DNA of 61,243 nucleotides from Deltaproteobacteria bacterium. Lineage in GTDB: Bacteria; Desulfobacterota; Desulfobulbia; Desulfobulbales; Desulfurivibrionaceae. The notes below the pieces were generated by a model. The model saw only the letters and a list, made by a program, of their open reading frames with translations, was not told the origin of the DNA and ran no database searches. The translations under genes and the position numbers were made by a program. Shown here in pieces: positions 16,258-39,433 of the stretch. Position 1 is the first letter of the stretch; each line of letters opens with the position of its first letter. The stretch lies in assembly GCA_021802645.1 (NCBI GenBank), contig JAJZRO010000014.1, forward strand, positions 1-61,243. The letters are read 5' to 3'.

Positions 16258-18012
16258 TTACGCCTTGGCGTCGCCGGTCAGTGCCGCCAGGTGGGCGCGG
16301 GCGAAGTCGAGGGAAGGGTCGAGTTCCAGGGCGAGGGAAAGGTGGGCTACGGCCTCGTCGAACCGGCCGAGTTTGCGCAGGTTGACCCCGAGATTGGCGT
16401 AGTCGATGGCCGAGGCCGGATTCAATTCCACCGTCCTGGCAAAGTGCAGCACCGCGGCCGCATGGTCCCCCAGCTTGAAATGGCAGAAGCCGGCCAGGTT
16501 GTGCAGATCGGGTCGTTCCTCGTCATGGCTCAGTCCTTCGTAAAGCGCGGCCAGCGCCTCTTCGTAGCGGCCCATCTCCTTGAGGCAGTCCCCCATGAAG
16601 GAATAGAGATAGGGCAGGTCCTCGGCCTCGGGATGGCGTGCGAGCGCCAGTTCGAAGTGTTTGAGGGCCTGATCGTGCTGGCCGGCGGCCATCAGGTTTT
16701 TGCCGAGGTAGAATTCGAGATAATAGGCCTCGGGCAGGAACTCGCGCAGCCGCATGAGCTGGCGGCTCTGCTCCACCAGGTCGTCGATCTGCTCATGCAC
16801 CAGCTTGGCGACAAAGAGGCCGACATTCTGCACCATCGACCGCTCGCGGAAATGGGCGCCCGGCACGATGGTGTAGATCGCCGGCACCTGCAGCGCCGGG
16901 TGCCTGGTGTCGATCACCAGCACCTCCATGCCAAGGCGTTGCAGCGCGCCGAGATAATTCTCGATCTCCACCCGCATGTTGTTGTCGCTCAGATTGGGCA
17001 GCTCGCCGATCGTCACGGTGCGGCCCGGCGTGGTGAGGTAGTCCATCTCTTCTATGGTGAGCGGCTTGGGCAGGCCGCTGGCCACGTAGTTCGACTTGCT
17101 CTCAAAATCGCCGGCCAGTTGCGCCACCTCGGTGATGGCCCGGATCAATGCCTTTTCCGGGTCCGGCGTGGTACCGGCGGTGTAGACGATTTCGCTCGTG
17201 GCCGGAAAGGTGGCGCGGTCGATGGCTAAAGCCGCCACGGTGGGGATGCCGGTGTCGAGGGTGAAGTCGTTGAGGTAGAGTTCGATGTGGTGGCGCTGGA
17301 ATTTTTCGATCAGCTCGCGGGCCACCGGGTCCTGGAGCGAGGCGGGGTCGATCTGCGGGGCGGGCCTCCGTTCGCGGGTGACGATGGCGCAGACGTGGCG
17401 CTCGACGATCTCGCTCACCCCCTGCAGAATCGCCTCCTCATAGGTATTGCCCGCCGACGGTCCGTTGAACTCGTTGATGGCATAGAACCAGCTGAAGGGC
17501 ACCAGCACCTCTTCGCCGCGGGTGAGGTTGCTGGCCCAGACCCACTGCATGGGGAGATCGGCGATGAGGGCCGCCAGAGTGGCGGGGTCGGTGGTCTCGT
17601 CGTGCACCGACTGCAGCAGGTAGTCGAGACCGAGCACCGGCTCGCCCTTGGCTTTAAGCCGGCTATAGGTGTCGCGGATGAAGTTGGCCGGATTCTTCTT
17701 GAAGCTGAAGAAACTGAAGCGTTCGGCCAGTTCCATGCAGGCGCTGGCCTGGGATTGTTCCGGCGTGCTGCCCTTGCCCATCTGCTTCTTGTTGCCGATG
17801 GTTTCCACGGCGTCCTTGCCGCAGACGCTGAAATAGACCGGGATGTCGAGTCGGCCGGTATCGATGCGCCGCACTTCCTGCAGGATGTCGAGGTTGACCT
17901 CGGCAAGCCGCGCCTTGAAGCGGTTAACGGTATCCAGCGGACTACAGGCCTTGTCCTGGTCGAAGGTGTAGGACTTGAAGCAATCCTGCGGGCGGATGGG
18001 TTGCGGTTTCAT
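16258..18012 (-). CDS. YcaO-domain protein with C-terminal TPR repeats
   Basis: A 584-residue protein. Residues about 20-400 form a YcaO domain, an ATP-dependent backbone-amide-activating enzyme. The ATP/Mg-binding segments include GKGSTPEQSQASACMELAER near 88-107 and the glutamates in EAILQGVSEIVERH near 200. From about 420 there are TPR-like repeats (HFELALARHPEAEDL, EALAALYEGLSHDEER, AAVLHFARTVELNPASA, EAVAHLSLALELDPSLD). YcaO enzymes make azolines or thioamides in peptides or proteins, or assist ribosomal protein S12 methylthiolation. No TfuA partner, dehydrogenase, precursor peptide or RimO is adjacent, so the target may be a cellular protein chosen through the TPRs. ATG 18012 gives the expected N-terminus. 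Confidence 0.82.
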   Translation of the reverse strand: MKPQPIRPQDCFKSYTFDQDKACSPLDTVNRFKARLAEVNLDILQEVRRIDTGRLDIPVYFSVCGKDAVETIGNKKQMGKGSTPEQSQASACMELAERFSFFSFKKNPANFIRDTYSRLKAKGEPVLGLDYLLQSVHDETTDPATLAALIADLPMQWVWASNLTRGEEVLVPFSWFYAINEFNGPSAGNTYEEAILQGVSEIVERHVCAIVTRERRPAPQIDPASLQDPVARELIEKFQRHHIELYLNDFTLDTGIPTVAALAIDRATFPATSEIVYTAGTTPDPEKALIRAITEVAQLAGDFESKSNYVASGLPKPLTIEEMDYLTTPGRTVTIGELPNLSDNNMRVEIENYLGALQRLGMEVLVIDTRHPALQVPAIYTIVPGAHFRERSMVQNVGLFVAKLVHEQIDDLVEQSRQLMRLREFLPEAYYLEFYLGKNLMAAGQHDQALKHFELALARHPEAEDLPYLYSFMGDCLKEMGRYEEALAALYEGLSHDEERPDLHNLAGFCHFKLGDHAAAVLHFARTVELNPASAIDYANLGVNLRKLGRFDEAVAHLSLALELDPSLDFARAHLAALTGDAKA

Positions 18013-18109
18013 GGCGATACGACAGGAAGTGTGGTCCGGAGCACGACCGGGATGGCCGCTTCGAACAAAGGGCCGATTATGCCCCATGGGGGGCGGCTTG
18101 TCAAGTGAT

Positions 18110-18132: not shown

Positions 18133-18495
18133 TCAGCCGCGCAGAATCAAAAACCAGGTCAGCATGGCAACGGCAATGGCGAGCAGCACCGCGGCAGAGC
18201 CGAGATCCTTGGCGCGGCCGGCGAGTTCGTGGTGCTCCGGCCCGACCCGGTCCACTACGGCCTCGATCGCGCTGTTGAGCAGTTCGACGATGGGTACCAG
18301 CAGGAGGCTGCCCACCAGCAAGGCCCGCTCGATGCCGGTCCGGCCCAGCCACAGGCCGAGCGGTACCAGCACCACCAGGGCCATGACCTCTTGCCGGAAG
18401 GCGGCCTCATGGTGAAAAGCGGCCCGCAGCCCCTGGAGGGACCACCCCCAGGCGTTGAAAATCCGGCGCAGGCCGTTGCCACTTGCTTTGCCCAC
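18133..18495 (-). CDS. dgkA: Diacylglycerol kinase (DgkA family)
   Basis: A 120-residue inner-membrane kinase that phosphorylates diacylglycerol to phosphatidate, recycling lipid released by envelope glycan synthesis. The amphipathic start (RRIFNAWGWSLQGLRAAFHHE) is followed by three membrane helices. The catalytic VELLNSAIEAVVDRVGPEHHELAGRAKD region is clear, with the active-site glutamates near residues 62-70. I chose GTG 18495, which has GGAG nine bases upstream and gives the family's normal length. The longer frame to 18588 would overlap the preceding methyltransferase gene by 74 bases and adds only low-complexity sequence. Confidence 0.88.
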   Translation of the reverse strand: MGKASGNGLRRIFNAWGWSLQGLRAAFHHEAAFRQEVMALVVLVPLGLWLGRTGIERALLVGSLLLVPIVELLNSAIEAVVDRVGPEHHELAGRAKDLGSAAVLLAIAVAMLTWFLILRG

Positions 18496-18514
18496 GGCAG
18501 GAGGCTCCGCCCGA

Positions 18515-19087
18515 TCACGCCGCAGCGGTGAGGGTGATGCAGTAGGTGTGGGGGCCGGTGTCGAAGAGTTTGTGGCGGTGGAAACCAAAAGGTGCCAGCA
18601 GCGCGGCGACCTCTTCCGGCGCCAGCCGGATCGGCAGCGGCGGCCCCGGCCCGTCGCCGGTCTTCTTGAACTCCACCACCGCGAAGGTCCCGCCGGGGCG
18701 GATCACCCGCCGGATCTCGGCGAGGGCTCCTTGATCGGTGTGGTCGTGCACCAGGTCATGCAGCACGGTGGCCATGAAGCAGATGTCGATGGAGTGGTCG
18801 TCGAGCGGCAGCTTTTTGCTTACGTCGGCATGGATCGGTTCGATGTTGGCAAGGCCTTGCTCTTCGATGCTCTTGCGTAGGGTGGCGATGCCTTCGGTCC
18901 AGAGGTCCGCGGCGTACACGATGCCCTCTGGCTTGATGGCCTTGGCCGCCGCCAGAGTGTACCGGCCGATGCCGCAGGCCACGTCAAAAAAGGAACTCGC
19001 CTCGGCGAGGCCGATCTCCCGGAAGACCAAGGGAACATCCACCAGGTCGAAACTGCTTTTGCCGGCAGCAATGGGTGGGGGTGTCAT
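18515..19087 (-). CDS. Class I SAM-dependent methyltransferase (UbiE/Methyltransf_11-like)
   Basis: A 190-residue methyltransferase with the SAM-binding motif FFDVACGIGRYTLAAA near residue 36, the acidic strand-2 end VYAADLW, HADVSKKLPLDDHSID, and the post-motif FMATVLHDLVHDH. The IRRVIRPGGTFAVVEFKK block is typical of small-molecule methylases such as UbiE. The substrate cannot be read from the sequence. It lies 19 bases before dgkA on the same strand. Confidence 0.82.
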   Translation of the reverse strand: MTPPPIAAGKSSFDLVDVPLVFREIGLAEASSFFDVACGIGRYTLAAAKAIKPEGIVYAADLWTEGIATLRKSIEEQGLANIEPIHADVSKKLPLDDHSIDICFMATVLHDLVHDHTDQGALAEIRRVIRPGGTFAVVEFKKTGDGPGPPLPIRLAPEEVAALLAPFGFHRHKLFDTGPHTYCITLTAAA

Positions 19088-23456: not shown

Positions 23457-24278
23457 TTACCCCCGCACCACCGCCGAGGCCTGCGGATCAAAGGGATTGA
23501 TGCGCACGGCCAGGGAAAAGAGATAGGGGTAGTCGCCCTTGAGGTACTGGAGATAGTCGAGCCACTGGCCGACGATGGTGGCATAGACCCGTTTCATGTC
23601 GCCGGCCAGGTGGTGGCGGTCGCTGTCGGGCAGATCACGAAGGTTTGTTCGGTAGACGAGTTCCTCGGCCAGATGGAAGACGGCCTGGAGGTGGTCGGTG
23701 AAGAGATCATGTTCCAGCAGGGTCGGGTGTTCGAGGAGCCCGACCAGAAAGGCGCGCCGGTTGCCGAGCAGGGTATGAAGGGCGTTCAGGTCCACCAGTC
23801 TGGTGTCCACGGCATGGGGATGGGTGCTCAGCGCCGCGGCTGCCTTGGCGAAATCCGCCTCCTGCCATGACGGGTCCACCAGGAGCTGGTTGCGTATTTC
23901 TGCCAGCTGCGGGTCGGCGGCGGCAAAGGCCGCCAGCAGCCGATTGCCCAATTCGCTGAAGTAAACGCCGACGAGGATGTGGTGCTTGCGCAGGCGCGAC
24001 TGCTTGTCGCGGCGGCTCAACATGATCTCGGTGGCATTGGCGATCACGCCCAGAAAGGTGCCGGTGCCGACGAGGATGACCAGGATGGCCAGCGCCTTGC
24101 CGGCCGGGGTGGTGGGATGGATGTCGCCGTACCCCACGGTGGACATGGTGACGAGGCTGAAGTAGAAGGCGTCGCCGAGGCTGAGATGTTCGGTGACGGT
24201 GAAGCCCCAGGTTCCAAGCGCGATGACGATGCAGAGGGCGGCGAGGAAGAAGCGCAGGCGCGCAGCAAGGGATTTCAT
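23457..24278 (-). CDS. Two-helix potassium channel with a non-canonical cytoplasmic domain
   Basis: A 273-residue ion channel. The first helix is at about 8-28, the selectivity filter STVGYGD at 46-52 and the second helix at about 61-82. After the pore comes KHHILVGVYFSELGNRLL (98-115), which recalls the first strand and loop of an RCK domain. The remaining 150 residues do not continue as an RCK Rossmann fold; they look mostly helical and lack a nucleotide motif. Its ATG overlaps the stop of the CarS/phosphoesterase gene (ATGA), so translation is probably coupled. kup follows downstream. Confidence 0.85.
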   Translation of the reverse strand: MKSLAARLRFFLAALCIVIALGTWGFTVTEHLSLGDAFYFSLVTMSTVGYGDIHPTTPAGKALAILVILVGTGTFLGVIANATEIMLSRRDKQSRLRKHHILVGVYFSELGNRLLAAFAAADPQLAEIRNQLLVDPSWQEADFAKAAAALSTHPHAVDTRLVDLNALHTLLGNRRAFLVGLLEHPTLLEHDLFTDHLQAVFHLAEELVYRTNLRDLPDSDRHHLAGDMKRVYATIVGQWLDYLQYLKGDYPYLFSLAVRINPFDPQASAVVRG

Positions 24279-25711
24279 GGGGTCTCCTGGGCAGGGGGGC
24301 AGTCAGGTGAGCATATTTGGGTGCCCCGGCGCAGGGTGATGAGAGTCACCTCGGCCGGGCAGTTGAAGCGCAGGGGCACGCTGGAGGCCCCCACCCCGCG
24401 GCTGGTGTAGCCGAGCATTTTTTGCCATTGCCACTGCCCTTCGGCGGTGGAGCGGGGGGCGCGGCTGTTGGTGTAAATGGCGCCGCGGCCCAGGCGGCGG
24501 ATCTGGCCGGCATGGGTGTGGCCGCAGAGGTAGAGCCGGGCGCCGTGGGCCGCCGCCTGGCGGTAGGCCTCGGGCGAATGGGCCAGCAGGATGGTGAAGG
24601 CCTGGTCGGGCACGGTACGGAAGGCCGCGGTCTCGTCGTTGGTCTGGTAGTAGTGGGGGTCGTCGAGGCCGAGCAGCCAGAGCGACTGCCCCTCTTTGGC
24701 CAAGGGCTGGGCATCGTTGATCAGCATGCGCACTCCCGCCTCCTCCAGGTCCGGCACCATCTCGATGCAGTCGTGGTTGCCGAGCACCCCGAAGATGCCG
24801 CCCCGGCTGCGGATGTGTGGCAGCACCCGCTTGAGCCGCCGCAGCGCCGGGCCAAAGGGGCCATAGAGCTTCATCCGCAGGTCGCCGCCGATGAGGCAGA
24901 GGTCCACCTCGAGATCGCGCACTTGGGCGATGAGGGCATCGGTGAGGCCGTGCACGCCGTCGAGGTGGAGGTCGGTAAGCAGCAGCAGGCGGAAGCCGTC
25001 GAAGGCCTCCGGTAGATCGGCAAAGGTGTATCCCACCTCCTCCAGCCGGATGTCGCGGGCATTGGTCATCCCTTTTTCATAGCGGCCGATGGCTTTGAAG
25101 AAGAAGGTGAGGAAGAGCTCGTTGTAGAGGAGATTCGAGAGGTTGAACCAGGTGTGCCAGCGGGCCAGGGGCTGATGGCAGGCTCGCCACTCGCGCAGCC
25201 GCACGGTGGAGCGGATGATGCGCGGATAGTTGTGCATGGCCGGTTTGAAGAGCAGCTCCTTCCAGAAGCGCGCCCCGGCGTGGGCGAGCGGGATGAAGGT
25301 AAAGCCGACCGCAAGGCGGAGCCAGACCGGAATGGCGAGATGGCTGCCGAGATAAAGGGCCGGGAGCATGGCCTCGAAGCACTGGTCGAGACCAAAGAGG
25401 GCGGTGCCGCTCGGCAGCCGGAAGCGGCGCTTGATGCAGCTCGAAATGAGATCACCGAGAATCGCGAGCAGGCTGGCGGTGGACGCCACCTGCCACGAGA
25501 CGCCGAGCAGCGGAAAGGTCAGCGTCCCGCCCAGGAGCGCGGCCATCACCCCGCGCACGGTTTTGTGCGAACCGAAGAGGAACTGGCCGTCGGGCAGACG
25601 CAGGCCGCCATCGAGCGGTTGCTGCCAGCGGTCGCCCAGGGCCATGCTGGCCAGGGGGGGCAGCAGGTTGACCCAGAGCACGAAGCCGAAGAGGAGGAGG
25701 GCGGTGGTCAT
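24275..25711 (-). CDS. CarS-like CDP-archaeol synthase domain fused to a metallophosphoesterase
   Basis: A 478-residue fusion. Residues 1-175 are a membrane domain related to CarS, with GSHKTVRGVMAALLGG (47-62), LGDLISSCIKRR (85-96) and GLDQCFEAMLPALYLG. Archaeal CarS transfers CMP to a polar isoprenoid glycerol lipid. A linker (about 176-215) includes an aromatic, possibly membrane-near segment. Residues about 216-478 are a calcineurin-like phosphoesterase of the YkuE type: TDLHLD (D247, H249), GGD (D277), GNHD (311-314), H378 and GHTH (397-400). It might make or hydrolyse a lipid-linked phosphate, but no substrate can be named. Both ends overlap neighbours by four bases (ATGA). Confidence 0.82.
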   Translation of the reverse strand: MTTALLLFGFVLWVNLLPPLASMALGDRWQQPLDGGLRLPDGQFLFGSHKTVRGVMAALLGGTLTFPLLGVSWQVASTASLLAILGDLISSCIKRRFRLPSGTALFGLDQCFEAMLPALYLGSHLAIPVWLRLAVGFTFIPLAHAGARFWKELLFKPAMHNYPRIIRSTVRLREWRACHQPLARWHTWFNLSNLLYNELFLTFFFKAIGRYEKGMTNARDIRLEEVGYTFADLPEAFDGFRLLLLTDLHLDGVHGLTDALIAQVRDLEVDLCLIGGDLRMKLYGPFGPALRRLKRVLPHIRSRGGIFGVLGNHDCIEMVPDLEEAGVRMLINDAQPLAKEGQSLWLLGLDDPHYYQTNDETAAFRTVPDQAFTILLAHSPEAYRQAAAHGARLYLCGHTHAGQIRRLGRGAIYTNSRAPRSTAEGQWQWQKMLGYTSRGVGASSVPLRFNCPAEVTLITLRRGTQICSPDCPPAQETP

Positions 25712-27033
25712 CGACGCCGGCGGCCTGGCGGGGAGGGCACGAGCGGACGCAGCGGCGGGTTGTAGTAGCCGAAGCGCAGATGCGGGAAGCGTTTCTTGAG
25801 GGTGGCCAGCCAGGCCCGCAATCCCAGCGCGTCGCCGGTCGGTTGGAAGCCGAGAGCCGCGAGGTACCAGTCCATGTCCATGTTGAGGTTGCGGAGCTGG
25901 ATGAAGTCGGGCCGGCAGTCGTCGAGCAGGGCGCAGAGGGCCGCGAATTCGTCCGGATCGTCGGTGAAGCCCGGCAGGATGAAGTAGTTGAGCGAGACAA
26001 AGCGCCGGTGGCGCTTCATCAGCCGGATCGACTCCCTGACCATCGCCAGGTCGAAGCCCTTGGGCCGGTAATAGCGGGTGTGGTAATCCGGGCGGGCGCT
26101 GTTCATGCTGACCCGCATGGAGTCGAGGCCGGCGTGGGCGAGGCGTTCCACCGCTTCGGGCAGGCTGGCGTTGGAGTTGAGATTGACCGTGCCCTGGCTG
26201 GTCTGCCTGCGGATCAGGCGGATGGCGGCCTCCAGGGTTGCGACCTGGAGCAGCGGCTCGCCCTCGCAGCCCTGGCCGAAGCTCGCCACATGGCCGGTTT
26301 TGTCGAGATGGGGTACGGCGATCTCGGCGATCTCGGCAGGAGTCGGCACGAAGCCGATGCGTTCCTGGGGCGAGGCGCAGCAGCCCGAGGGCTGGAGCGA
26401 GATGCAGCCGACGCATTGGGCATTGCAGACCGGCGAGGTGGGCAGCGGCGCCTCCCATTTGCCCATGAAGTAGTTGACCGCCGCCGGGCAGCGGTAGGTG
26501 AGGCAGCAGTGGCCGAGGTGCTGGATCAGCCGGTTGGCGGGATGCGCCTTGAGCTGTTTGGTGGTGCGGCTGGTGATGCTCTGCGGGGCATAGCGGTTGG
26601 CCTCCTGGCGGGGATCCTTGTCGCTGCGGAAGCCGCAGGCCCAGAATTGGCCATCATGCCAGCCTACTGCCGCGTAGGCAAAGAGTGGCAGGGTGGGGGC
26701 CTGGTCGTGCGCTTTTTCGTAGGCCGCCCAGAAGGTAGCGGTATGGGCTGGGGCCAGAAAGGCAGCCACTGCCTGGATGCCCTCGCCGGGGCTGTCCGGG
26801 TTCTGATCCAGGAGCATCGCCTCGCCGGTCTCGGGGTGGATGCCCACCGGCAACCGCTCCGGCAGAACAAAGAGATCGCTCCCCTCGGGCAGCGGGATAC
26901 AGTCGGCCGGCTCGGGCCGGAAAAAGCCGTGGCCGCTGCGGCCAGCCAGCAGAAGTTCGGGAAATTCCTTAATCTCGCCCTGGCCGTTGGCATAGACCAG
27001 GCAGGGGGTATGCTCTGGATGGCGTTTCTTCAT
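25708..27033 (-). CDS. Radical SAM enzyme of unknown substrate
   Basis: A 441-residue protein. The radical SAM cluster cysteines are C203, C207 and C210 (PVCNAQCVGC). Extra cysteines lie just before (CCLTYRC, 176-182) and after (PSGCC, about 215-219) and could hold a second cluster. GQGCEGEPLLQ and the LNSNASLPEAVERL segment follow the usual barrel order. The first 170 residues form an unrecognised N-terminal region. It is not a close match to known maturases that I recall. Its stop overlaps the next gene's ATG, making it first in a three-gene coupled unit with the CarS/phosphoesterase fusion and the K+ channel. Confidence 0.82.
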   Translation of the reverse strand: MKKRHPEHTPCLVYANGQGEIKEFPELLLAGRSGHGFFRPEPADCIPLPEGSDLFVLPERLPVGIHPETGEAMLLDQNPDSPGEGIQAVAAFLAPAHTATFWAAYEKAHDQAPTLPLFAYAAVGWHDGQFWACGFRSDKDPRQEANRYAPQSITSRTTKQLKAHPANRLIQHLGHCCLTYRCPAAVNYFMGKWEAPLPTSPVCNAQCVGCISLQPSGCCASPQERIGFVPTPAEIAEIAVPHLDKTGHVASFGQGCEGEPLLQVATLEAAIRLIRRQTSQGTVNLNSNASLPEAVERLAHAGLDSMRVSMNSARPDYHTRYYRPKGFDLAMVRESIRLMKRHRRFVSLNYFILPGFTDDPDEFAALCALLDDCRPDFIQLRNLNMDMDWYLAALGFQPTGDALGLRAWLATLKKRFPHLRFGYYNPPLRPLVPSPPGRRRR

Positions 27034-29141: not shown

Positions 29142-29306
29142 ATTCCGTTTCTCAATCAAGATGCGAACGCGAACACCCCGCAAGGGGGGATAAAGGCGAG
29201 TGAGCAGCGACGAGACAGTACAAGAGGAGTACGGCGAGGAGCCGCGCAGCGCGGTTAGCCGGCAGCAGCGAAGCGGCGAAGTTATCGCTTGATTGAGAAA
29301 TGGAAT
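29142..29306. repeat. Palindrome-ended intergenic repeat, copy B (165 bp)
   Basis: The left end ATTCCGTTTCTCAATCAAG (29142-29160) and right end CTTGATTGAGAAATGGAAT (29288-29306) are inverted repeats matching at 18 of 19 positions. The interior shares GCAGCGACGAGACAGTAC and GTACGGCGAGGAGCCGCGCA with copy C in reverse orientation, and AGCAGCGAAGCGGCGAAG with copy A. It fills the gap between convergent speA and the hypothetical gene, whose stop codon starts at the element's last base. It has no transposase and no credible gene. Confidence 0.85.
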
Positions 29307-29725
29307 TACTGGGGTGGCCGGAGGGCGCCAAGGACCGAATCCACGGCGCGGTAGATCTCCAGATCGTCGCCGAAGACATCCTGGATCTTGTCGTGCTCGA
29401 TGAGATCCTCGGCGATGTACTGGGTGAGGTAGATGCTGATGAAGTTGGGGTCCACCACCAGGCTCCGCAGCGGGGCGGTCTTGTACTGCATGTCGAACTC
29501 GTCCATCTCCGGCAGCTTCTGGAAGAGGGAGACGAAGACCTCGCGGATGGCGTCGGTGGAGGTGGTTTCGATGATGTGTTTGTCCAGCAGCCGTTGCACC
29601 AGCTTGGTGGCCAGTTCCGGGGCGTTCTTGTAGAGCGCTTGCAGCATCATCTGTCGTTCGCGCTGCCGTTTGCGGTCGATGGCGCCGACGTTTTTATCGT
29701 TATATGGTCTGGTGTGGCTTCCCAT
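29306..29725 (-). CDS. Conserved-looking hypothetical protein
   Basis: A 139-residue soluble, mostly helical, acidic protein that I do not recognise. It begins MGSHTRPYNDKNVGAIDRKR and has a charged N-terminus, no signal peptide and no membrane helix. Segments such as LATKLVQRLLDKHIIETT and YLTQYIAEDLIEHDKIQDVF look like packed helices. The start has AAGGAG about seven bases upstream. Codon use matches the neighbours, supporting a real gene. It is convergent with speA and divergent from the DUF1992 gene. Confidence 0.7.
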   Translation of the reverse strand: MGSHTRPYNDKNVGAIDRKRQRERQMMLQALYKNAPELATKLVQRLLDKHIIETTSTDAIREVFVSLFQKLPEMDEFDMQYKTAPLRSLVVDPNFISIYLTQYIAEDLIEHDKIQDVFGDDLEIYRAVDSVLGALRPPQ

Positions 29726-29934
29726 GCTGGTCTCCTTCCCGGTCCCTTCGAATGTCTGCCCGTTCCTGTGAAGATAGATACAGGAAAAAATAGGAAAACA
29801 AAAGGGAAAAGAACAGCGGCTTATGCTTTTCTTTGGCTTGGCGTGCGGCTTTCGCGGCATCCCCGCTCGCTGGGCCGGTAGCGAGAGGCCATGGCGGCCC
29901 TTTTGCTTTTGACAAAAAGGCGGTATGGTTCCTC

Positions 29935-37458: not shown

Positions 37459-37751
37459 GCGGTCACGGGGGCAACGACGGCATGATACGAAAAAAAATAA
37501 CAAAAAAATGAACCACACTTTGCGCGGAGAAGCAAGGAGAAGAAGGAGGGGAACAAGGGGCGCGAACATCTAACTCGGTGCCGTTAGGCAACAACAAGAG
37601 GCCTCCTGACAGAAACATGGTATCTGGAGGATCGTCTGAGAAATTTCAAAGGCACGTGGCAGGGATGGTGGTGGGTGGCCGTGTCAATGGCCGCCTTTCC
37701 GACTTCGGGCGGTGCGGGTTGTCCGACCATGACCTGGGGAGGCGCTTGGCC
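37459..37751. other. Intergenic region between the hybrid kinase and Nudix genes
   Basis: 293 bases. The part nearest the kinase (37484-37510) has long A-runs, giving T-runs on the minus strand, and probably includes the kinase promoter. A purine-rich AAGGAGAAGAAGGAGG-like stretch near 37535-37555 resembles a ribosome site on the plus strand but precedes no gene. Nothing else is recognised. Confidence 0.4.
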
Positions 37752-38237
37752 TTAGAGCCGCGTGTAGGACCAGCCGATGGGGCGATTGTCCCGATAGGGC
37801 ATGTGGCCGTAAAAGATCCGCGGGTCCTGGTCAAAGACCAGCGGCAGGAAATGGCGGTCCCCCTCCCACATGGGCAGCTCGTGGAGCCGGCCGATCGGCT
37901 GCCAGGAGAGTACCCCCTCACTGTTCTCGCGGTAGGGCGTGCCGCGGAAGCGGTCGATGCGGAAGATGAAGCCCAGCCAGTCTTCACCGTCCGGGCCGAA
38001 GCCGGTCCAGTTGATGATACCCCGCAATATCGTGGCCTCGCACGCGATCCCCGCTTCCTCCCGGATTTCCCGGTGGAGGCAGGTCAGCACGTCCTCATGG
38101 GGCAGCATCTTGCCGCCCAGGCCGTTGTATTTGCCGAGATGGGCATCGTCCGCCCGGGCATTCCGATGCACCAGCAGAGTCTGTTCACGGTCCGGCGAGA
38201 GAATGTAGCCGAGGGTGCCGACGATGGGTCTGTACAT
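37752..38237 (-). CDS. Nudix hydrolase (MutT/8-oxo-dGTPase-like)
   Basis: A 161-residue Nudix protein. The Nudix box runs from GGKMLPHEDVLT through REIREEAGI (about 41-63) and is intact, so it should hydrolyse a nucleoside diphosphate-linked substrate with Mg. GKYNGLGGK before the box and WEGDRHFLPLVFD after it resemble MTH1-like 8-oxo-dGTP diphosphatases. That substrate is an inference. The gene stands alone, divergent from the diguanylate cyclase gene. Confidence 0.88.
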   Translation of the reverse strand: MYRPIVGTLGYILSPDREQTLLVHRNARADDAHLGKYNGLGGKMLPHEDVLTCLHREIREEAGIACEATILRGIINWTGFGPDGEDWLGFIFRIDRFRGTPYRENSEGVLSWQPIGRLHELPMWEGDRHFLPLVFDQDPRIFYGHMPYRDNRPIGWSYTRL

Positions 38238-38446
38238 GCAGGGCCTCCCGAGGGGCAGAGCGTTTTGGTGGGTGCGGCTTCGACCTCATGGCATGATGTA
38301 CCCCAAAATTATCCGAAAGGCCATTCTTGGCCAGGAAAAATGTTCCCTGGAAAGCAGGGGAAATTTCTGCTACAAGATAATGTCGCCAACCGGTTACGGC
38401 CGTGGCGGCATAAGCGAGGGGCATGACGACAGGGGCGAGGAGCACG

Positions 38447-39433
38447 ATGTCGATACTGATTGTGGACGATACACCGGTCAATCTGGTGTTGCTGGAAGAT
38501 ATCCTGAAGCAGGAGGGCTACGGCGATATCCATTGTGTGGGTTCCGCCCGCGAGGCCTTTGCCTTTCTGGAGCGGGGCGGCCCGCTTGGGCCGGACGTCG
38601 ATCTCATCCTGATGGACGTGGTCATGCCGGGCATGGACGGCATCGAGGCCTGCCGGCAGATCAAGGCCCAGGAGCGGCTGAAGGACATTCCGGTGGTGAT
38701 GATCACGGTGCGGGACGACACCGAGGCGTTGCAGCAATCCTTTGCCGCCGGCGCCAACGACTATATCATCAAGCCCGTCAAGGAAACCGAGCTGCTTTCC
38801 CGCACCCGTTCGGTCATGCGGCTGAAGAGGGAGATCGATTGCCGTAAGGCCCGTGAGGCGGAGTTGCTCCGCATGACCGAGCAGCTCGAGATAATCAACA
38901 AGACCCTGGAAAATCTGATCAACATCGACAGCCTCACCGAGGTGGCCAATCGGCGTTATTTCGACCGCCTGCTGGAAAACGAGTGGCAGCGGGCTATCCG
39001 GCGCGCCGATTCCCTCGCCCTGTTGATGATCGATCTCGACGACTTCAAGGCCTACAACGAAACCTACGGCCACCAGAAGGGGGATCAGTGTCTGCGCCAG
39101 GTGGCCTCGGCGTTGAACGAGGTGATCAAGCGGGCGGGGGATTTGGTCGTGCGTTACGGCGGCGAGGAGTTTGCCGTGGTGCTGCCCAACACCGACAGTG
39201 AGGGCGCCATGGTCGTGGCGGAGCGGCTCCGGTCGGAGATCGATACCCTCAAGATTCCGCATGAGCACGCCAGTAGCGGTGACACCCTGACCGTGAGCAT
39301 CGGCATTGCCGCCGGAGTGCCGAAGGAGGGGGACGACCGGCGGCAGATCGTGACGGCGGCGGAGAGCGCCCTCTACATCGCCAAGAGCGAGGGGCGCAAC
39401 TGCATCCGGGTAGCCAAAGACTCCTGCGCCTGA
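38447..39433 (+). CDS. Receiver-GGDEF response regulator, diguanylate cyclase
   Basis: A 328-residue WspR-like protein. The receiver domain has its acidic pair (LIVDDTP), phospho-aspartate D57 in LMDVVMPGMDG and IIKPVK. A helical linker (about 120-165) leads to GGDEF with the active site RYGGEEFAVVLP. The inhibitory RxxD site (RAGD) precedes it by five residues, so product feedback by cyclic di-GMP is expected. ATG 38447 has GAGGAG four bases upstream; ATG 38423 is a possible alternative. Its cognate kinase could be the hybrid kinase about 1 kb away, but no operon joins them. Confidence 0.92.
   Translation: MSILIVDDTPVNLVLLEDILKQEGYGDIHCVGSAREAFAFLERGGPLGPDVDLILMDVVMPGMDGIEACRQIKAQERLKDIPVVMITVRDDTEALQQSFAAGANDYIIKPVKETELLSRTRSVMRLKREIDCRKAREAELLRMTEQLEIINKTLENLINIDSLTEVANRRYFDRLLENEWQRAIRRADSLALLMIDLDDFKAYNETYGHQKGDQCLRQVASALNEVIKRAGDLVVRYGGEEFAVVLPNTDSEGAMVVAERLRSEIDTLKIPHEHASSGDTLTVSIGIAAGVPKEGDDRRQIVTAAESALYIAKSEGRNCIRVAKDSCA

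Follow-up and report, generated by a model that had tools for sequence, protein, structure and literature searches.

A CarS-like domain fused to a calcineurin-type phosphoesterase in a family-level gene neighborhood of a Desulfurivibrionaceae bacterium

The CDP-archaeol synthase CarS (PF01864) of Aeropyrum pernix (structure 5GUF) has a five-helix topology with a cytoplasmic active site; the enzyme binds K+, and its activity is stimulated by K+ (PMC9385802). In the literature that we searched, nothing describes what CarS-like enzymes do in bacteria with a CdsA of their own, and no paper deals with a bacterial CarS-phosphoesterase pair. Here, we analyzed a 61,243-nucleotide stretch of DNA (the window; contig JAJZRO010000014.1 of the 2.55 Mb assembly GCA_021802645.1) from a bacterium of the Desulfurivibrionaceae. 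Three consecutive genes of the window encode a radical S-adenosylmethionine (SAM) protein, a CarS-like domain fused to a metallophosphoesterase, and a two-transmembrane (2-TM) K+ channel. A sequence-only reading of the window had proposed that these genes form a pathway whose lipid product gates the channel. With moderate confidence, we instead take the block to be a family-level neighborhood and not a three-part system, in which the informative member is the fusion, a predicted CTP-dependent enzyme of envelope-lipid metabolism. The features of the block are as follows.

27033-25708, minus strand: radical SAM gene, 441 amino acids (P0001)
25711-24275, minus strand: CarS-like/metallophosphoesterase fusion gene, 478 amino acids (P0002)
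25217-25711, minus strand: CarS-like membrane domain of the fusion, residues ~1-165, placed by its match to 5guf and by invariance in 27 homologs
24323-25000, minus strand: calcineurin-like phosphoesterase domain of the fusion, residues ~238-463, placed by Pfam and alignment
24278-23457, minus strand: 2-TM K+ channel with a non-RCK C-terminal domain, 273 amino acids (P0003)
23460-24014, minus strand: unnamed C-terminal domain of the channel, residues ~89-273, placed by alignment; without a Pfam or NCBIfam family
25708-25711, minus strand: ATGA overlap between the radical SAM and fusion genes, restricted to the genus of the window (G000, G001)
24275-24278, minus strand: ATGA overlap between the fusion and channel genes, found in 8/8 family genomes in which the two are neighbors

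The coordinates, strands, and both junctions were exactly those of the sequence-only reading, which had also called the overlaps the strongest coupling in the window. Two in a row are indeed unusual; however, a rough count of open reading frames (ORFs) showed another ATGA-coupled pair on the plus strand, at 37578-38426 and 38423-39433. The first ORF of that pair encodes a product without a Pfam family, and the second a response regulator-GGDEF protein.

The fusion had been recognized correctly from the sequence, and we found both of its domains in a single frame. The CarS-like domain (PF01864, E 1.6e-7) scored above the Pfam gathering score (32 bits versus 22), the Metallophos domain (PF00149) was matched with E 1.9e-7, and a profile of the fusion matched A. 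pernix CarS (5guf) with E 1.3e-15. We aligned 27 full-length fusions, which were 39-80% identical to that of the window, and observed that D34, D41, G47, K50, T51, G86, D87, S91, K94-R95-R96, D109, Q110, and E113 of the CarS-like half were invariant. The motifs D..DG..(L/F)G..KT.(R/E)G and GD..(S)..KRR...G...DQ are shared with CarS and, judged by the alignment to 5guf and by the invariance in the 27 fusions, the CTP/Mg-binding core of 5GUF appears conserved. Given the homology to CarS and the intact catalytic residues, the CarS-like domain would most likely transfer CMP, or with lower probability phosphate, from CTP onto a lipid phosphate in the membrane. Unlike CarS, the fusion carries a phosphoesterase, diverges in the C-terminal third of the CarS region, falls below the CarS equivalog cut-off, and usually coexists with CdsA; an archaeal-type substrate is not expected.

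We followed the three genes in two genome samples, 58 relatives from the window's order and 395 genomes of the phylum. An ordinary CdsA-type enzyme was present in 56/58 relatives, so the fusion is generally additional to CdsA, and we rejected the idea that it serves as a general CdsA replacement.

The phosphoesterase half is similarly well conserved, with D247, H249, D277, N312, H313, H378, H398, and H400 invariant in the 27 fusions. In the family-averaged hydropathy, membrane segments were confined to residues up to ~150, and the stretch that links the two halves (residues 186-207) was too low in hydrophobicity for a clear extra helix. Together with the five-helix topology of CarS, this would place the phosphoesterase domain in the cytoplasm; there it may act on the same intermediate or the one after it, hydrolyzing a phosphoester or pyrophosphate at the cytoplasmic face. 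Structure prediction of the fusion from two sequences was of low confidence (pLDDT, the predicted local distance difference test, 35). The nearest NCBIfam models of this half were YaeI and LpxG, both under cut-off. YaeI phosphodiesterase (PRK11340), the best match with 79.2 bits against a cut-off of 188, is without a CarS domain. LpxG, a membrane-associated UDP-2,3-diacylglucosamine pyrophosphatase (PMC4807358), shares with the fusion the calcineurin-type metal motifs DxH and GNHD, and was among the best models with E 7.9e-16. The phosphoesterase half might, then, be the main enzyme, a pyrophosphatase of the LpxG/LpxH type that acts on UDP-2,3-diacylglucosamine for lipid A, with the CarS half mainly an anchor or regulator. 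We consider this unlikely. The fusion, joined as it is to CarS, scored only 58.3 bits with the LpxG model NF033458, far under the cut-off of 350, and of the LpxG motif DXH-(X)25-GDXXDR-(X)25-GNHD it has DLH and GNHD but shows GDxR(M/P/A/F) in place of GDXXDR. Furthermore, the invariance of the catalytic residues in the CarS half is more than an anchor would require.

The CarS-family search of the phylum also returned unfused CarS-like genes of about 166 amino acids in other families. At all 14 unfused loci of a subfamily related to the fusion, a PHP-type phosphoesterase ORF lay downstream on the same strand, and in 13/14 it was within ~130 bp of the CarS-like gene. The two PHP partners that were scanned are CehA/McbA-like and scored above the cut-off of PF13263 and below that of PF02811. 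The PHP-type partners are non-homologous to the calcineurin-type domain of the fusion. That two non-homologous phosphoesterases partner a CarS-like enzyme speaks for a functional tie between the two activities, and provides good evidence that phosphoester hydrolysis belongs to the pathway of the CarS-like enzyme. An lptD or msbA-like gene stood beside the CarS-PHP pair in 11/14 loci: LptD followed in five of the 14, from four families, and an MsbA-like ABC transporter preceded CarS in six. Such neighbors, which would also suit a lipid A pyrophosphatase, point to the envelope and hence to envelope-lipid metabolism. In the tree, all fused CarS domains grouped in a single clade (100/100 support, 200/200 bootstraps) that joins the CarS-like proteins paired with PHP, and the fusion has one origin. 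The fused and PHP-paired forms occurred together in none of the sampled genomes, a mutual absence that is weak on its own because only about one overlap was expected by chance. The pairing of CarS-like enzymes with either of two unrelated phosphoesterases, one of these forms lying beside lptD or msbA-like genes, offers a testable lead to an unrecognized envelope-lipid step in Gram-negative bacteria.

Other CarS-like genes of the phylum stood in different contexts. Family f89 has another, distant subfamily of CarS (L242:4438-10726, L244, and L247; genomes G329, G310, and G401), which clusters with a UbiA prenyltransferase and a phosphatidylserine decarboxylase of the archaetidylserine type; the arrangement recalls, in a bacterium, parts of the pathway by which archaea make ether lipids. 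At L239:4174-5919 (family f45), a CarS-like gene directly follows an AhbC/AhbD-like radical SAM gene, which belongs to a family other than that of the window's radical SAM protein; L238 (f22) holds a related pair.

Several observations weigh against a CTP-dependent, envelope-lipid role for the fusion. It scored far below the cut-off of the CarS equivalog NF003114 (49.5 versus 148 bits), and all six MsbA-like cases came from one family. Fusion loci outside the window's family showed no consistent lipid neighbors, and neither LptD nor full-length MsbA was found near any of them. Phosphoesterase domains without CarS in seven genomes of the phylum sample indicate that this domain can act alone. 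Both relatives without a CdsA match (G009, G035) carry the fusion; assembly gaps likely explain the missing gene, but the fusion may have replaced CdsA there. Finally, the radical SAM gene co-occurred with the fusion in a way that leaves room for a metabolic link between them: it was present in 23/23 fusion genomes of the phylum sample and, at the family level, in 7/7 fusion families against a background of 55/107 families (hypergeometric p 0.008), or in 13/14 families once those with PHP-paired CarS were added (p 0.0007, same background). These p values ignore kinship and the family counts were made by hand; shared ancestry can explain the pattern, and the co-occurrence is therefore suggestive only.

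Two other ideas about the fusion were tried and rejected. A separate CarS hidden in the phosphoesterase-only genomes was not found within about 7 kb, nor was any of these genomes among those with a CarS-family match. Outside the window's family, three loci (in f3 and f12) have a CDP-alcohol phosphatidyltransferase gene as the direct neighbor of the fusion, and at one of them the two genes share an ATGA-type overlap; but close orthologs were present in only four relatives (in three of them beside the fusion, and in G055 in a fusion-less genome), and we rejected it as an obligate partner.

We then compared how widely the three genes are distributed. The radical SAM protein was near-universal in the order (57/58 relatives) and present in 194/395 phylum genomes. 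The fusion was intact in 29 of the 58 relatives and in pieces in 2 more, and its full-length form was found in 23/395 phylum genomes that span seven families. A full-length channel ortholog was found in 9/58 relatives and in about 30/395 phylum genomes. Since these counts differ so much, the three genes have different histories. Among the loci examined outside the window's family, no radical SAM gene was near a fusion locus and no fusion was near a radical SAM locus; four other genomes (G032, G233, G335, and G406) hold both the fusion and the channel, unlinked. The three-gene order was found only in the window's own family, and the proposed three-gene pathway is not borne out. The sequence-only reading had itself allowed that rare co-occurrence of the families would make the overlaps an accident of compact packing: the trio is rare in this sense, whereas CarS with a phosphoesterase is a recurrent combination. 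We reason that the radical SAM gene may be an independent, order-wide core gene that became a neighbor of the fusion in one family, and that the independently distributed channel may there have joined the same transcript and become translationally coupled to the fusion.

Pure genome packing, in which the three genes are functionally unrelated and the fusion-channel overlap is an inherited accident of one family, is the most serious competitor to our view; we give it a substantial chance, though one short of even. At the family loci examined, a divergent speA is followed by the radical SAM gene and then the fusion, with the exception of genus g5, which is without the fusion. Synteny in the same family genomes extends over 15-20 kb around the block and includes a dgkA-type gene, a YcaO-TPR gene, and two further ORFs, so that unrelated genes are kept adjacent as well. 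Adjacency of the block genes within the family is thus mostly inherited synteny and weak evidence of a shared function. Packing is also consistent with the finding that neither the radical SAM gene nor the channel gene, each followed over 20 loci, has partners that are widely shared, and with the four genomes in which fusion and channel are unlinked. However, it leaves unexplained why CarS pairs with two different phosphoesterases, and why the fusion-channel overlap is exact. Wherever the two genes are neighbors in the family (8/8 genomes), that junction was exactly -4 bp, and in the seven genomes other than the window's the channel was 53-55% identical to that of the window. In contrast, the radical SAM-fusion junction measured -4 bp in no genus but that of the window, and the rest of the family had gaps of +6 to +193 bp. 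Of the couplings claimed by the sequence-only reading, the fusion-channel one appears to exceed chance; because the first is constant while the second varies in the same genomes, the fusion-channel coupling is the candidate, if any coupling is meaningful.

In described 2-TM K+ channels such as MthK and Kch, an RCK domain follows the pore. The window channel shares the 2-TM pore (Ion_trans_2, PF07885, E 7.6e-19; profile E 7.7e-20 to the MthK pore) and the TVGYGD filter. As the sequence-only reading had noted, it is without a normal RCK: Pfam gave no RCK match (TrkA_N/TrkA_C) after the pore, and matches to the PDB ended at residue ~106. Its C-terminal domain, which has no family in Pfam or NCBIfam, occurs in the phylum in two settings, attached to 2-TM K+ pores and, in proteins of ~247 amino acids, to a two-helix anchor that has no pore. 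E189, H202, E206, R210, H223, D227, W239, and Y242 were invariant in both forms and in remote members (27-29% identity), and the resulting E/HxxxE/HxxxD pattern (HxxxE, HxxxD) suggests a metal site in a helical domain. The domain is thus an unnamed module common to K+ channels and pore-less membrane proteins, for which a metal ligand is predicted. Neither form showed widely conserved neighbors. Structure prediction of the channel from its single sequence was of low confidence (pLDDT 43). Pore-less two-helix proteins with this domain are widespread (L217-L236).

These features bear on the original proposal of a channel gated by a lipid that the fusion makes and the radical SAM enzyme perhaps modifies, with Kup as the supplier of K+. 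The conserved translational coupling of fusion and channel, a non-RCK domain that could sense something new, the radical SAM gene in every fusion genome, and the K+ binding and K+ stimulation of A. pernix CarS (PMC9385802) would all fit. Nevertheless, we regard it as highly improbable: most genomes with the fusion lack the channel, most of those with the channel lack the fusion, kup is not conserved as a neighbor, the invariant pattern of the C-terminal domain resembles a metal site, and the domain also occurs on pore-less proteins without conserved neighbors. A broader scenario also seems decidedly unlikely: in this phylum, the CarS-calcineurin fusion or the CarS/PHP pair would carry out an undescribed CTP-dependent envelope-lipid step, and in one family translational coupling to a K+ channel whose gating domain is new and binds metal would tie K+ flux to lipid metabolism. 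Under our preferred view of the block as a family-level neighborhood, the results that we expect to be durable are the association of CarS with phosphoesterases and the unnamed channel domain.

The radical SAM protein has the CX3CX2C core (C203/C207/C210; PF04055, E 3.4e-14) of MoaA/NifB-like enzymes, and a weak similarity to MoaA (E 1.2e-5) as well as to a solved radical SAM chain, 6y1x. It differs from them in forming its own family, with a ~190-amino acid N-terminal part of no assigned function and three extra invariant cysteines. The extra cysteines noted from the sequence proved conserved in part, since C176, C182, and C256 were invariant across 23 homologs and the CC at 218-219 was not. 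No NCBIfam equivalog matched above cut-off, the best being MoaA with 24.5 versus 284 bits. A known tetraether-lipid type enzyme was considered and rejected, as no such model was among its NCBIfam matches.

Two further genes keep their order within the family.

16258-18087: YcaO-TPR gene
18133-18588, minus strand: dgkA-type prokaryotic diacylglycerol kinase gene

Across family loci, the dgkA-type gene follows the fusion at a distance of about 2-6 kb and shares its strand; the product class of such a kinase, a lipid phosphate, is what the CarS-like enzyme would use. The suggested partner kup was rejected, since none of the other family loci has it at this position, and terC and DUF1003 were likewise not conserved. 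Several relatives (L036:10466-10771, L033:10033-10350) carry a short ORF for a 2Fe-2S ferredoxin-like protein immediately after the fusion or channel gene; this ORF was not seen in the window. The viral contigs that we searched held no relative of the channel domain, and one had a partial match to the phosphoesterase half of the fusion. Upstream of the radical SAM gene lies a sigma-70-like match (27142-27114, minus strand), which is a consensus match only. In families f3, f11, and f12 (L178-L181), the radical SAM gene is directly preceded by a small conserved gene, whose window homolog lies beyond speA at 29306-29860 on the minus strand and encodes a protein with no Pfam or NCBIfam match. Given its position in those three families, this small gene is probably the older neighbor of the radical SAM gene.

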